Assembly: GCA_903827245.1 (NCBI GenBank)
Contig: CAIKHO010000078.1
Location: 1-64,000 of the forward strand
DNA from: an uncultured Opitutia bacterium
GTDB taxonomy: Bacteria; Verrucomicrobiota; Verrucomicrobiia; Opitutales; Opitutaceae
Length of the DNA: 64,000 bases
Reading direction: 5' to 3'
The notes below the pieces were generated by a model that did no database searches, was not told the DNA's origin, and was given only the letters and a program-made list of their open reading frames with translations. This document shows positions 50,805 to 55,681 of the stretch, piece after piece. Position numbers and translations under genes: made by a program. The first letter of the stretch is position 1; each line of letters begins with the position of its first letter.

Positions 50805-51611
50805 CTACCCCGCATTCTCCGCCACAAACGTCTCCATCGCCTCCCGCGTGATGATATGCCGCGCACCGCAGCGCGGGCAGCGGATCTCCAGCTTCGGCTC
50901 GTCGCCGAAGAGGCCTTCCGGATCCTGCCGCATCGGTGACGCCAGCACTTCCATCATGCGCGCATCGTTGCACCCGCAGTGCCAGCGGTAGATGCGCCGC
51001 TCCAGCAAGGCGAGTGTCTCGGTGGTGTCCAGGTTGCGCACCTGCTCGACCGTGAGCGCGCGCAGCCAGTCCAGGTCGCAATCGGGATGCTCCGTGACCA
51101 TCGCGAAATCCTCCTCGCCGAGCTGAACGTATCGGGTGAGCCGCTGCTCGCTCTGCGCATAGAACTTCTCCGCCGCCGCGATCGGATCCGCGCCGGTGAA
51201 GTCCACGGTGCTGCGCCGCTTCGGCTGGGTGCCGTTCACGACGTCGGCATAGAAAATGTTCGTTGGCAGCTCCTTCACGTTCTCGTCGAACACCCGCCCG
51301 GTGACGGCACCGGTCTCGTTGTCGCCGGTGAGAAAGAAGTTCACGAGCGGCTGCTGGAAATTGATGGTCCACGCCGTGGTCTCCTTCCACGGCCGGGACG
51401 CGCAATGCAGCGTGAACGCCGCGAGGGCGCGCTTGAACATCGCGTCGTGCTCCGGCGCCACCTTCAGGCCCTGGTCGGCAAGATGCAGGTAGCGGTCGAC
51501 GTAGAGGTCCCCGAAGCCGGCCCGCGCGAGCAGGACGTTCCGGTTACGAACATAATAGGTGCGGACCTCGATGCCGGCATCGGCAAGGTTGGGCGGAACG
51601 GTATTTGGCAT
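50805..51611 (-). CDS. hslO: Hsp33-type redox-regulated chaperone
   Basis: Holdase activated by oxidation, which releases zinc from four cysteines. The 268-residue product has the N-terminal substrate domain (GAVTGRVFDENVKELPTNIF) and the C-terminal switch with CxC (WHCGCNDARMMEVLA) and CxxC (RCPRCGARHIITREAMETF), so all four zinc cysteines are present. The start MPNTVPPNLADAGIEVRTYY was chosen; earlier codons in the frame lie in repeat DNA. Its 3' end has a duplicated fragment 200 bases downstream. It is a sensible partner for MsrA encoded nearby, though the two are not in one operon. Confidence 0.9.
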   Translation of the reverse strand: MPNTVPPNLADAGIEVRTYYVRNRNVLLARAGFGDLYVDRYLHLADQGLKVAPEHDAMFKRALAAFTLHCASRPWKETTAWTINFQQPLVNFFLTGDNETGAVTGRVFDENVKELPTNIFYADVVNGTQPKRRSTVDFTGADPIAAAEKFYAQSEQRLTRYVQLGEEDFAMVTEHPDCDLDWLRALTVEQVRNLDTTETLALLERRIYRWHCGCNDARMMEVLASPMRQDPEGLFGDEPKLEIRCPRCGARHIITREAMETFVAENAG

Positions 51612-52004
51612 GCCATAAGGTTGCCACGTTTGCCCCAAAGTAAAGCGACCCACCGGCATCCCACGTAAGGGCGCCCCTTGCGTGCGCCCTGCCTTTGCCA
51701 CCCGCGAACCCCGGATTTTTAGCCACAAAAAGGCACAAGATGACACTAAACCAATCCCGGCATTCCGACCTCATCAATGCCACCGATCCGTTTTACAAAA
51801 GGTCACAAAGGAAACGAAGGACAAGGCAGACGGGAATATCTTCGTTGCCTCCGTTCCCTTCTGTAAAAATGCCTACGGATCAGGATCCCTTTCGTGTCAT
51901 GTCGCGCCTCTCCTGTCCGCCGTAACTTGGCGAAGGAGGATTGTGGCAAAAAATCCGCAATCGATTTGTTGTCGGATTTCCACCCCCGGCGGCGATGACA
52001 AGGC
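51612..52004. repeat. Nested repeat block between hslO and the truncated sigma gene
   Basis: No gene is present. GTAAGGGCGCCCCTTGCGTG (51665) is a half-copy of family B. Outer arms of family F run from 51714 (GGATTTTTAGCCACAAAAAG) to a right arm at 51890-51956 (TTCGTGTCAT...GTGGCAAAAAATCC). Between them lies another inverted repeat (TTTTACAAAAGG at 51791 to CTTCTGTAAAAA ending 51869). The right outer arm is itself split by a hairpin, TCCTGTCCGCC...GGCGAAGGAGGA (51910-51941). Confidence 0.85.
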
Positions 52005-52379
52005 GTGATGGGCACGAGCGACCCCGAGCTGCTGCAGCGCTATGCCGAAACCGGCTCGCAGGAGGCCTTCGCCGCCCTGGTGAAGCGCCACCTCGACCTG
52101 GTCTACTCGGCCGCCCGGCGTCAGGTCCGTTCGCCCCAACTGGCCGAGGAAGTCGCCCAGTCCGTGTTCCTCCATCTGTCCCGCCAAGCCCGCACCCTCC
52201 AGCCCGGAACGCCCCTGGCAGCGTGGCTCTACCTCGTCACCCGGCGGACCTCCATCGACGTGATCCGCCGCGAATCCCGCCGCCAAGCCCGCGGGCAAAC
52301 CGCCGTCGCCATCGCCGCCATGAACACCTCATCTGAAGCCAAGGCGAAGGCCGAGAGGTGTTGGCCGCACAACAATTAG
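52005..52379 (+). pseudogene. Truncated sigma-70 family sigma factor (ECF type), region 2 only
   Basis: The 124-residue frame matches ECF region 2: LLQRYAETGSQEAFAALVKR, HLDLVYSAARRQV, AEEVAQSVFLHLSRQARTLQ and LAAWLYLVTRRTSIDVIRRE. After RRQARGQTAVAIAAMNTSSE the homology stops and the frame ends 20 residues later; the DNA-binding region 4 is missing. A family-B repeat starts two bases after the stop codon. It is most likely a broken gene; a short peptide that binds RNA polymerase without DNA recognition cannot be excluded. Confidence 0.8.
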
Positions 52380-52380
52380 T

Positions 52381-52448
52381 GTAGATCCGCCGCTTGACGG
52401 CGCCCTCCGGAGGCGAGCGAACCCGGGCGTCGTCAAGCAACGCCCCTA
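52381..52448. repeat. REPIN-like inverted repeat, family B variant, at the sigma break
   Basis: GTAGATCCGCCGCTTGACGG (left) pairs imperfectly with the right arm GGGCGTCGTCAAGCAACGCC, which ends CTAC. The right arm is nearly identical to that at 61621-61645. It begins two bases after the stop of the truncated sigma gene. Confidence 0.85.
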
Positions 52449-52453
52449 CGACA

Positions 52454-53068
52454 TCACTTTTCGCCGGCGAGCTTGTGCTCCAGCTTCTTGATCTTCGGGG
52501 CGATCACGTACGTGCAGTAGCCTTGGTTCGGGTTCTTCGCGAAATAGTCCTGATGGTAGTCTTCGGCGGGCCAGAATTTGGTCAGCGGCACGATCTCGGT
52601 CGTGATCGGGTCGCGGAAGACCTGCGACGCGGCATCGCGCGATTTCTCCGCCGCCGCCTTCTGCGCGTCGTTCGCGTAGAGGATGATCGAGCGGTACTGC
52701 GGCCCCTGGTCATTGCCCTGGCCGCCGACCTGCGTCGGGTTGTGCACCTGCCAGAAGAAATCCAGCAGCGCCGCCAGCGAGACTTTCGCCGGGTCATAGT
52801 CGATCTTGATGACCTCTGCGTGGCCCGTCACATGCGCGCAGACCTCCTCGTACGTCGGGTTGGGCTCCTTCCCCCCGGCATAGCCGCAGGTCACGGCCTT
52901 CACCCCGGGCAGGAGCTTGTAGGCGGCGTCGGTGCACCAGAAGCAGCCGCCGCCCAGGACGAGGGATTCGGTGGCGGACGGGGCCGTTGCCTCCGCCGCG
53001 CGGGATGGAGTGGTCGTCATAGAGAGAAGCGCCGCGGTCGCGGCCAAAGGGGCGAGGAATGATTTCAT
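52454..53068 (-). CDS. msrA: Secreted peptide methionine sulfoxide reductase A
   Basis: Reduces methionine-S-sulfoxide in proteins. The 204-residue product has a signal peptide (MKSFLAPLAATAALLSMTTT, cleaved near SRA) and the catalytic motif GGCFWCTDA, with YAGGKEPNPTYEEVCAHVTG, NDQGPQYRSIILYAND and PAEDYHQDYFAKNPNQGYC; the last Cys could be the resolving one. The start was placed at the signal peptide, as the longer frame runs through repeats. It probably repairs periplasmic or surface proteins. Confidence 0.94.
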   Translation of the reverse strand: MKSFLAPLAATAALLSMTTTPSRAAEATAPSATESLVLGGGCFWCTDAAYKLLPGVKAVTCGYAGGKEPNPTYEEVCAHVTGHAEVIKIDYDPAKVSLAALLDFFWQVHNPTQVGGQGNDQGPQYRSIILYANDAQKAAAEKSRDAASQVFRDPITTEIVPLTKFWPAEDYHQDYFAKNPNQGYCTYVIAPKIKKLEHKLAGEK

Positions 53069-53156
53069 GAGCTCGATAGGAAGAGCCGCCAGCCGGCCCG
53101 CGTATTCCCGGTTGCGTGCGATTCCAAGGGAAGCGAAGAATCGGAGATCTTCAACT

Positions 53157-53224
53157 GTAGGAGCGGCTTTACGCCGCGATGATCGGGCCGGCGTGGCACA
53201 CCATCGCGTCGTAAACCCGCGCTC
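53157..53224. repeat. REPIN-like inverted repeat, family A
   Basis: GTAGGAGCGGCTTTACGCCG starts at 53157 and pairs imperfectly with the right arm ATCGCGTCGTAAACCCGCGC ending near 53224. The left arm differs at one base from the copy at 40521-40594. It lies in the divergent gap between msrA and the S4-domain gene. Confidence 0.88.
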
Positions 53225-53250
53225 AAGGCCGATGAGGCCAAAGGCCACGA

Positions 53251-53347
53251 AATTTTTGCCACGAAAAGGCACCACATGACACAAAAAGAGATGCATTCAG
53301 GAAGGTTTGTTTTCGTGTCATTTCGTGCCTTTTCGTGGCAAAAAATC
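53251..53347. repeat. Inverted repeat, family F (TTTTTGCCACGAAAAGGCAC)
   Basis: AATTTTTGCCACGAAAAGGC (53251) and the right arm TTTCGTGCCTTTTCGTGGCA (from 53321) form a long stem of about 35 bases, with a 30-base centre. The same arms recur at 51714 and 51890. Its right end holds a GTG that could be read as the start of the next gene. Confidence 0.9.
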
Positions 53348-53355
53348 CGATTCCC

Positions 53356-53742
53356 GTGACCGCTCCCTCCACCAACGACTGCCGGCTGGACAAATGGCTC
53401 TGGAGCGTACGCGTGTTCAAGACCCGCCCCGAGGCGACGGACGCCTGCCGGGCCGGCAAGGTCCTGGTCGACACCCTCGAGGCCAAGCCGGGCCGCGACG
53501 TTCACGTGGGCGAGATCGTCAGCGTCAAGGTCGGCCTCGTGCAGCGCACGCTCAAGGTCCTCGGCCTGCCACGCACCCGGGTCGGAGCCAAGCTGCTGTC
53601 CGAATTCCTGGAGGATCTCACACCCGCAGCGGAGTACGAGCGCGCCAAGCAGGCCGGCCTCGAGCACATGCTCGCCCGCGAACGCGGCCGCCCGACGAAA
53701 AAGGACCGCCGGGACATGTCGCAGCTCTTCGGGTTCGAATGA
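53356..53742 (+). CDS. hslR: S4-domain RNA-binding protein, Hsp15 type
   Basis: Hsp15 binds 50S subunits carrying stalled nascent chains. From GTG at 53356 the product has 128 residues with an N-terminal S4 domain (CRLDKWLWSVRVFKTRPEAT, DACRAGKVLVD) and a basic C-terminus (RERGRPTKKDRRDMSQLFGF), both as in E. coli HslR (133). The frame also begins at a GTG at 53335 (MAKNPIPV...), but that codon lies within the family-F repeat, so I prefer the later start. No strong ribosome binding site is visible for either. Confidence 0.85.
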   Translation: MTAPSTNDCRLDKWLWSVRVFKTRPEATDACRAGKVLVDTLEAKPGRDVHVGEIVSVKVGLVQRTLKVLGLPRTRVGAKLLSEFLEDLTPAAEYERAKQAGLEHMLARERGRPTKKDRRDMSQLFGFE

Positions 53743-53754
53743 GGAGCCACCTCT

Positions 53755-53840
53755 ACTCGGATCGACCTCGGCTCCCCTCCTGTGCAACGGATCGGGATCG
53801 GAAGCTTTACAGGAGGCAATCCGAGGGAGAACCAAGGACG
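53755..53840 (+). repeat. Dispersed repeat, family G (copy 1)
   Basis: This block (CTCGGATCGACCTCGGCTCC ... GATCGGAAGCTTTACAGGAG ... AATCCGAGGGAGAACC) recurs in the same orientation at 61473-61570. Pieces of the left part (CTCGGATCG, CCTCGG) appear in inverse form in the right part but in a changed order, so it folds only in part. Confidence 0.82.
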
Positions 53841-53878
53841 GAAAAAGCCCGTATTTTCGCACTCCATCGGAATTTTTG

Positions 53879-53946
53879 GCCACTGATTACACAGATGGGC
53901 ACAAATTAATCCGGTCTTTATCTGTGCCATCTGTGTAATCAGTGGC
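53879..53946. repeat. Inverted repeat (CACTGATTACACAGAT)
   Basis: GCCACTGATTACACAGATGG at 53879 pairs with CATCTGTGTAATCAGTGGC ending at 53946, with a loop of about 20 bases. It lies between the S4-domain gene and the end of ettA, and could act as a two-way terminator. Confidence 0.9.
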
Positions 53947-53995
53947 AAACAAGGATCGGGATCGATCCGGCAGATTAGGGAAAGGTCAACCCGCC

Positions 53996-55681
53996 CTACC
54001 GCGTCAGCTTGCGGTACTTGATCCGGTGTGGCTGGTCCGCCTCCTTGCCCTTGCGGCGGCGGAAGTCCTCTAGGTAGCTCGAATAGTTGCCGTTGAACCA
54101 GTGGACAGTGCTGTCGCCCTCGAACGCCAGGATGTGCGTCGCCACGCGGTCGAGGAACCAGCGGTCGTGCGACACCACCACCGCGCAGCCAGCGAAGTTC
54201 TCCAGCCCCTCCTCCAGCGCGCGGATCGAGTTCACATCGAGGTCGTTGGTCGGCTCGTCGAGCAGGATCAGGTTGGCCCCACTCTTCAGCAGCCGCGCAA
54301 GGTGCACGCGGTTGCGCTCGCCGCCGGAGAGCACGCCGACCTTCTTCTGCTGGTCCGCCCCGGTGAAGCCGAACTGCGCGCAATAGGCGCGGCTATTCAG
54401 CTCCCGCCCGGGCATCCGGATGATCTCCTCGCCGCCGCTGATCGCCTGCCAGATCGTCTCGCCATCGGGCAGCGAGTCGCGCGACTGGTCGACGTGCGCG
54501 ATTTTCACCGTGTCGCCCACCCGCAGCGTGCCGGAGTCCGGCTTCTCCGCCGCCGTGATTAGCCGGAACATCGTGGTCTTGCCTGCGCCGTTCGGGCCGA
54601 TCACGCCGACGATTCCGCCGGGCGGCAGCGAGAAATTCACGTTCTCGAACAGCACGTTGTCGCCGTAACTCTTGGCGAGTGCCTGTGCCTCGACCACCAG
54701 CGTGCCCAGCCGCGGTCCCGGCGGGATAAGCAGCTCAAACTCCCGCTCTTTCTCGGCCACGTTCTGATTCAGCATGCTCTCATACGCGCTGATGCGCGCC
54801 TGCGACTTGGCCACGCGCGCCTTGGCCGACTTCCGGATCCACTCCAGCTCGCGCGCCATCGCCTTCTGGCGGCGGTCCTCCGTGCGCTGCTCGACCGCCG
54901 CGCGGGCCTGTTTCTGCTCCAGCCACTGCGAATAATTACCCTTCCATGGGATGCCGTGGCCGTAGGAGAGCTCCAGGATCCACTGCGCAACATTATCCAG
55001 AAAGTAGCGGTCGTGCGTCACCGCAATGACCGTGCCCTCGTAGCGCGCCAGATGCTGCTCGAGCCAGTGGACGCTCTCGGCGTCGAGGTGATTGGTCGGC
55101 TCGTCGAGCAGCAGGATCGAAGGCTTCTGCAAGAGCAGCCGCGCCAGCGCGACGCGCCGGCGTTCACCGCCGGAAAGCTTGTCCACGGGCTGGTCGGGCG
55201 GCGGGCACCGCAGTGCATCCATCGCCATCTCCACCTGCGGGGCGACATCCCATGCGCCGAGCGCGTCGATCTTCTCCTGCAATTCGCCCTGCTTCGTCAT
55301 GATCGCATCCTTGGCCTTGTCGTCCGCGGCCTCATTGAGTTCGTCCCAGGTGGCATCGTAAGCCGCGGTAAGATCGGTCAGATGCTTCACGCCTTCCTCG
55401 ACGCATGCGCGCACGGTCGCGCCGGGCGTGAGGTGCGGCTCCTGCTCGAGGAGGCCGATGGAATAGCCCGGCTCAAAATGAACGCGGCCGTCGATCTCCT
55501 TGTCGCGCCCCGCGAGGATGCGCAGGAGGGAGGACTTGCCCGAGCCATTCAGGCCGAGGACGCCGATCTTCGCGCCGTAGTAAAACGACAGCGAGATATC
55601 GCGGAGGATTTCCTTGCGCTCGATCTTCTTCGAGACGCCGAGCATCGAGAAAATGATCTTGGGCTCGTCGGGCTTGGCCAT
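53996..55681 (-). CDS. ettA: ABC-F translation factor EttA
   Basis: Energy-dependent translational throttle that binds the E site. The 561-residue product has two ATP-binding cassettes: Walker A GLNGSGKSSLLRILAG (about residue 40), signature LSGGERRRVALARLLLQ, LLLDEPTNHLDAESV; the second has GPNGAGKTTMFRL and LSGGERNRVHLARLLK with LLDEPTNDLDVNS. Between them lies the arm/linker (ELEWIRKSAKARVAKSQARI, basic helices). The C-terminus (RRKGKEADQPHRIKYRKLTR) matches EttA. The start MAKPDEPK at 55681 is favoured; an ATG three codons earlier is also possible. It is transcribed toward the S4-domain gene and ends at the inverted repeat. Confidence 0.95.
   Translation of the reverse strand: MAKPDEPKIIFSMLGVSKKIERKEILRDISLSFYYGAKIGVLGLNGSGKSSLLRILAGRDKEIDGRVHFEPGYSIGLLEQEPHLTPGATVRACVEEGVKHLTDLTAAYDATWDELNEAADDKAKDAIMTKQGELQEKIDALGAWDVAPQVEMAMDALRCPPPDQPVDKLSGGERRRVALARLLLQKPSILLLDEPTNHLDAESVHWLEQHLARYEGTVIAVTHDRYFLDNVAQWILELSYGHGIPWKGNYSQWLEQKQARAAVEQRTEDRRQKAMARELEWIRKSAKARVAKSQARISAYESMLNQNVAEKEREFELLIPPGPRLGTLVVEAQALAKSYGDNVLFENVNFSLPPGGIVGVIGPNGAGKTTMFRLITAAEKPDSGTLRVGDTVKIAHVDQSRDSLPDGETIWQAISGGEEIIRMPGRELNSRAYCAQFGFTGADQQKKVGVLSGGERNRVHLARLLKSGANLILLDEPTNDLDVNSIRALEEGLENFAGCAVVVSHDRWFLDRVATHILAFEGDSTVHWFNGNYSSYLEDFRRRKGKEADQPHRIKYRKLTR

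Follow-up and report, generated by a model that had tools for sequence, protein, structure and literature searches.

We wondered how a palindromic repeat comes to hold one palindrome in its loop and another within its arm. Such a locus lies at 51712-51957 of the window, the 64,000-nt stretch analysed here, which belongs to contig C78 of an uncultured Opitutia bacterium (G000, a 97%-complete MAG of 3.55 Mb in 91 contigs). An earlier note had described the arms of a repeat family, F, enclosing an inverted repeat and the right arm split by a separate hairpin, and all three hairpins were found in these places. The outer F palindrome (repeat search and fold; a family of ~33 copies) opens with a left arm of imperfect 10-nt units, CGGATTTTTAGCCACAAAAAGGCACAAGATGACACTAAA, at 51712..51751 on the + strand, as are the other parts of this locus and the palindromes at 53248..53349 and 53873..53952 below. 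Within its loop lies a palindrome of a second family, T (TTTTACAAAAGGTCACAAAGGAAACGAAGG...CTTCGTTGCCTCCGTTCCCTTCTGTAAAA, 51791..51868), which folds alone (z -2.9) and has further copies elsewhere. The F right arm follows in two pieces, TTTCGTGTCATGTCGCGCCTCT (51890..51911; repeat search and empty-site alignment) and TTGTGGCAAAAAATCCG (51941..51957; repeat search). Between them stands CCTGTCCGCCGTAACTTGGCGAAGGAGGA (51912..51940), identified by its empty site and a covariance-model match (51911-51942, 46.5 bits) as a 29-nt copy of a 30-nt family that we call S. The 246-nt strand folds into the outer F stem with the T stem in its loop and S as a side hairpin, at -51.3 kcal/mol (z -6.7); shuffled sequences give -27.9±3.5, and none of 200 does as well. 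The window S folded alone gives a moderate z of -1.9 only; its reality rests on family evidence. The uninterrupted right arm that the note had seen at 53311-53347 is part of an intact short-form F palindrome at 53248..53349 (repeat search; fold z -6.2), which served as reference. The empty site of the window S reads GCGCCTCT^TTGTGGC (^ marks the junction), and over 37 nt its joined flanks align gap-free with an arm of an intact F, matching at 91.9%. A GTAG-type REP, GTAGGAGCGGCTTTACGCCGCGA, lies upstream of this intact copy at 53158-53190 and has many similar copies in the congeneric genome G002.

S is a family of its own with a 30-nt consensus, CTTGTCCGCCGHAGCCTTGGCGAAGGMGGA, made up of a 4-nt 5' tag (CTTG or CCTG; positions 1-4 are mostly C, C/T, T and G), a 6-bp stem, a GHA/GAA internal loop and a GCC-TT-GGC tip. 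The GHA/GAA loop may resemble the sheared G-A motifs of DNA and RNA. Exactly 30 nt were counted in 134 of 162 collected copies, and position A13 is invariant. The fold is conserved: 93.9% of stem cells are paired compared with 83.5% when the 3' arms were shuffled (maximum 86.6%), and compensatory pairs occur, for example, at positions 8-27 (GC/TA/AT) and 5-30 (TA/CG). Covariance-model matches at E<=1, weak ones included, number 96 in G000 and 84 in G002; those above ~29 bits were read together with their flanks. A third genome of the genus, G001 (72% complete), yielded one weak S match and no F match, and this distribution, with S and F in tens in both G000 and G002, was counted in favour of mobility.

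The hairpin is also present at many places in public genomes. Its 22-nt core, CCGHAGCCTTGGCGAAGGMGGA, occurs in at least 115 stretches from many phyla, among the matches listed Verrucomicrobia, Kiritimatiellae, Lentisphaerae, Omnitrophota, Elusimicrobia, Patescibacteria, Alphaproteobacteria, Deltaproteobacteria, Nitrospira, Acidobacteria, Planctomycetes and others; Opitutaceae records are among those sharing S. As an internal control, TGTCC, which lies outside the search pattern, was found within eight bases upstream of the core in 69 of the 117 matches listed. E. coli gave no match at all. Plasmid and phage collections gave no perfect full-length match in either, which rules out S as their common passenger. 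Some copies form inverted pairs ~90 nt apart (G000 C86:115198/115285, C30:73047/73137 and C84:19889/19975; G002 C13), and nested copies are single. S variants also lie near tRNA genes (Ser, Leu, Gln, Thr) in both orientations (loci L126, L130, L148, L151, L153, L168 and L174), often as inverted pairs of the same ~90-nt spacing.

We read the ~33 F copies of G000 in full. The F arm consists of three imperfect 10-nt units, and most copies are plain, in two forms, ~100 and 135 nt long. A foreign palindrome occupies the loop of five copies, and S is present in three. The loop inserts are T in the window, a G-family palindrome at C48:19685 (a kind that also stands in the window at 53873..53952, GCCACTGATTACACAGATGGGCAC...), a CGCAGAGG-type palindrome at C65:94600, another of this type at C7:4400 in a copy that has lost its right arm, and a larger palindrome at C33:25115, within which lie two GC-rich REP-like hairpins. 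These larger elements sit in the F loop in 5 of 5 cases and in the arms in none. T copies were found on C70, C90, C22 and C86, the one at C86:62262 inside the loop of a G palindrome. The F, G, T and CGCAGAGG families have a common plan, with arms of three imperfect 9-10-nt units (window 53248-53349 and 53873-53952; L110). Across G000 and G002, S stands at one common place in the arm in five F copies (G000 C78 and C48; G002 C9, C6 and C52). The G000 C89 copy has only the 3' junction in common with them, because part of its element is missing.

Is S then an insertion? The joined flanks of ~33 S copies match uninterrupted host palindromes gap-free across the junction (40 queries passed the filter, and a few S or self matches were removed), with no base lost and none duplicated. 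S is thus a clean insertion without target duplication or loss. Matches of the joined flanks reached 32/32 (C86) and 34/34 (C48:127331) against an intact palindrome of the R family, 29/30 for a G002 copy against intact F, and 34/34 for a Bradyrhizobium site, CGTCATTGCGAGCGCAGCGA^AGCAATCC. The hosts include F, at least eight other palindrome families, a Bradyrhizobium CGTC-type REP and S itself. Sites read GCCTTT^TTGTGGC in the F arm, GCCTC^TGCGCGAAA in the CGCAGAGGC family, GCGCGGAACGG^AGTCCGCGC in R, CCGCCGCCCGG^AGGTCGGCGG in V, GCGCAGCGA^AGCAATCC in the CGTC-type REP and CCGH^AGCC within S. Further nested copies were found at CATCCCGGCGG^AAGCCGGGATCC in an alphaproteobacterium and twice at CCGTGTCA^TCCGTGGTTAA on a Kiritimatiellia contig, there at the same arm position as in F. 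On a Patescibacteria contig (L259:20-110) S splits a partial tRNA-like duplicate, CCAACTG^AGCTACGCCCCGAT. No conserved tetranucleotide adjoins the junction at L-4 to L-1, unlike the targets of IS200/IS605 elements.

S also enters itself. In an Omnitrophota MAG (contig JAVCCB010000049.1), a stretch at L213:1-150 holds five left half-units, CYTGTCCGCCGA, and at least four right half-units, AGCCTTGGCAAAGGCGGA, where the sequence breaks off; this is S in S, five levels deep. S is likewise nested in S at G000 C9:41171. In some G002 copies (L184, L191) the loop of S is interrupted by a further hairpin of ~36 nt, TCGCCTCCGGCGCCGCCATAGGCGGGTAAACCTTGG, and at G002 C52:78022 an F palindrome holds an S with that hairpin inside.

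We then asked whether these sites are distributed at random. S recurs at a single position in F, at a single position in the CGCAGAGGC family, and in R and V at the tip. Among 103 non-redundant sites (similar flanks removed), 19 have stems centred on the junction with a score of at least 6. Permuting the right flanks inside their source groups gives an expectation of 4.9±2.1, and 0 of 500 permutations gave as many as 19; the exact significance has to be judged knowing that the statistic was designed after a weaker plain-energy test. In that plain test the joined flanks showed a small shift in fold energy (-4.56 vs -3.97±0.13), and enclosing pairs were not in excess. The stronger argument is position dependence, as the excess drops when both cuts slide by at least 3 nt and is gone when the cuts move outward by at least 6 nt. 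About 80% of S sites have no strong centred stem, and many of these adjoin tRNA genes or lie elsewhere. It is barely credible that insertions simply hit palindromes without preference because these fill much intergenic space. The intergenic space is palindrome-rich, with ~9% of intergenic bases in the window by a crude and probably too low estimate, but ~29 of 45 G000 S copies lie in palindromes (counted by eye) and the centred-stem excess over permuted flanks is sharp in position. For S, the earlier note's suggestion of palindromes as landing sites for one another passes the test set in that note and is supported: S stands at many other places, and its sites are non-random, recurrent and tip-enriched. 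For the larger elements it is suggestive, on five cases that are all in the F loop, and part of the recurrence of S reflects copying of composites.

This copying is the core of the most serious rival, in which S entered each palindrome family a single time long ago and all nested copies descend from that composite, with no continuing preference for hairpins. S copies are indeed more alike within than between host families (similarity 0.83 vs 0.78 in G000, 0 of 1000 permutations; 0.92 vs 0.86 in G002, p 0.003), so that many nested copies multiplied with their host and are not independent events; host families, not copies, are the safer event count. Fixed junctions and host-specific stem types (the H, Y and Z families) fit as well. 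Even so, this account needs at least nine separate clean entries into different palindrome families in this genus, the safer count, plus others in other phyla and into S itself, and several substitutions or an indel separate the S copies that lie in F; we regard it as unlikely, if worth serious weight. Less plausible is replication error, in which hairpins stall the fork and template switching or tip cleavage (for example by SbcCD) pastes another hairpin in with no dedicated enzyme. It would account for insertions at tips without target duplication and agrees with the lack of a Y1 transposase gene match in G000, yet random template switching should give varied ends and partners, and what we see is the same 30-nt insert with the same ends in many phyla. 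We consider it distinctly improbable, too, that S is a functional RNA or DNA-binding module (a terminator, or a processing or protein site) selected where hairpins are transcribed. The conserved fold with its compensatory changes and the several copies close to tRNA genes speak for a function; against it, S stands in either orientation beside tRNA genes, is absent from most F copies and is nested in itself, and a search of window 51600-54100 with the Rfam 15 covariance models gave only sub-threshold microRNA matches to generic hairpins.

We think it reasonably probable that S is a mobile but non-autonomous 30-nt hairpin of the REP class, inserted single-stranded, without target duplication, into hairpin-folded DNA. 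The DNA would fold into a hairpin that serves as the target, S would enter it as a single strand, for the most part within the 3' half of the loop or the final unit of an arm built of tandem units, and some lodged composites (R+S, Z+S and others) would multiply as one unit with the host palindrome. Clean junctions, structure-dependent targets and the 4-nt tag at the hairpin foot point to such a single-strand, REP-like process, which may run on the lagging strand with an HUH-type enzyme acting in trans. G002 has a Y1_Tnp (RAYT-like) gene at L198:1361-1880 (G002:C11) with R repeats on both sides in inverted orientation, the classical REP-RAYT layout, and R is a frequent host of S; REP machinery thus exists in the genus. 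This gene is flanked by R, not by S. No match to Y1_Tnp (PF01797) was found in G000, a 97%-complete MAG with ~90 S matches, which counts against the mechanism and leaves a RAYT as the agent in G000 unsupported. Also weighing against it are the lack of a conserved tetranucleotide at the junction, the ~80% of sites that show no strong centred stem, the non-independence of copies within a host and the failure to find orthologues with and without S. More tentatively, and with doubt prevailing, S could be a minimal mobile DNA across many phyla that recognises shape rather than sequence, takes any folded single-stranded hairpin including itself as a target, builds multi-level palindromes and mosaics, and is moved by an unrecognised enzyme.

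How does S relate to known repeats? The closest are REP elements and REPINs, for which Di Nocera et al. (2013; PMC3733652) described the GTAG and CGTC super-families. Like these, S is an imperfect hairpin in the 20-40 nt range with an unpaired 5' tetranucleotide, compensatory stems and many mostly intergenic copies (PMC3733652); its inverted pairs near tRNA genes may correspond to REPIN-like dimers. Its tag is CTTG or CCTG, not GTAG or CGTC at the stem foot; it enters many unrelated palindrome families, including itself and REPs of the GTAG as well as the CGTC super-family; a single core sequence is common to many phyla; and no associated RAYT (Y1_Tnp) gene flanked by S was found in G000 or G002. 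The same study noted in passing that REP dimers lie within palindromes in A. variabilis and H. neapolitanus, and that there are small palindromes of which hundreds of copies are empty, reported GTAG-23 elements inside small palindromes in T. roseum, and listed Opitutus terrae as REP-rich (PMC3733652). IS elements inside REPs (Tobes and Pareja, 2006; PMC1525189) also use palindromic repeats as insertion targets, but S is a gene-less 30-nt hairpin and targets many palindrome families, not one REP. IS200/IS605 elements transpose single-stranded (PMC6006769). They are recognised by their hairpins and leave no target duplication, and S too leaves none; it differs in being gene-less, in showing no fixed target of four or five nucleotides at the left flank and in the lack of a TnpA found in G000. 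MITEs are defined by terminal inverted repeats with target-site duplication, and S junctions show no duplication.

Rickettsia palindromic elements are mostly longer and largely confined to Rickettsiales, a description that sets S apart. They resemble S as palindromic inserts in unexpected places, including genes (cited in PMC3733652). A literature search, with most subscription-journal full text outside it, found neither the S nor the F strings, and as far as the searched literature shows, S is new, as are its breadth and the clean way in which it enters many families, S among them. If a 30-nt hairpin does spread through many phyla by landing on folded DNA, palindromes would be docking sites rather than passive junk, and the mosaic structure of bacterial intergenic repeats would have a simple cause. 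S would then naturally mark the places at which single-stranded hairpins arise in living cells, and it would point to an enzyme or process acting on them, with S-in-S nesting leading to a directly testable prediction.

Comparison of syntenic regions in G000 and G002 shows fast repeat turnover. The window F site is absent from G002, a CGCAGAGG-type palindrome stands in place of the intact F, and at the two S-bearing sites whose syntenic positions were compared G002 has other palindromes. No orthologues were found in which the same host has S in one genome and lacks it in the other. For an F that G002 has and G000 lacks, the one syntenic empty site gave no clear target duplication. The same intergenic sites are occupied by different palindrome families in the two genomes. 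The nested element of the window is adjoined by a short ORF (52009-52377) which by eye resembles the N-terminal part of an RNA polymerase sigma factor, and the syntenic G002 region lacks both this ORF and the nested element.
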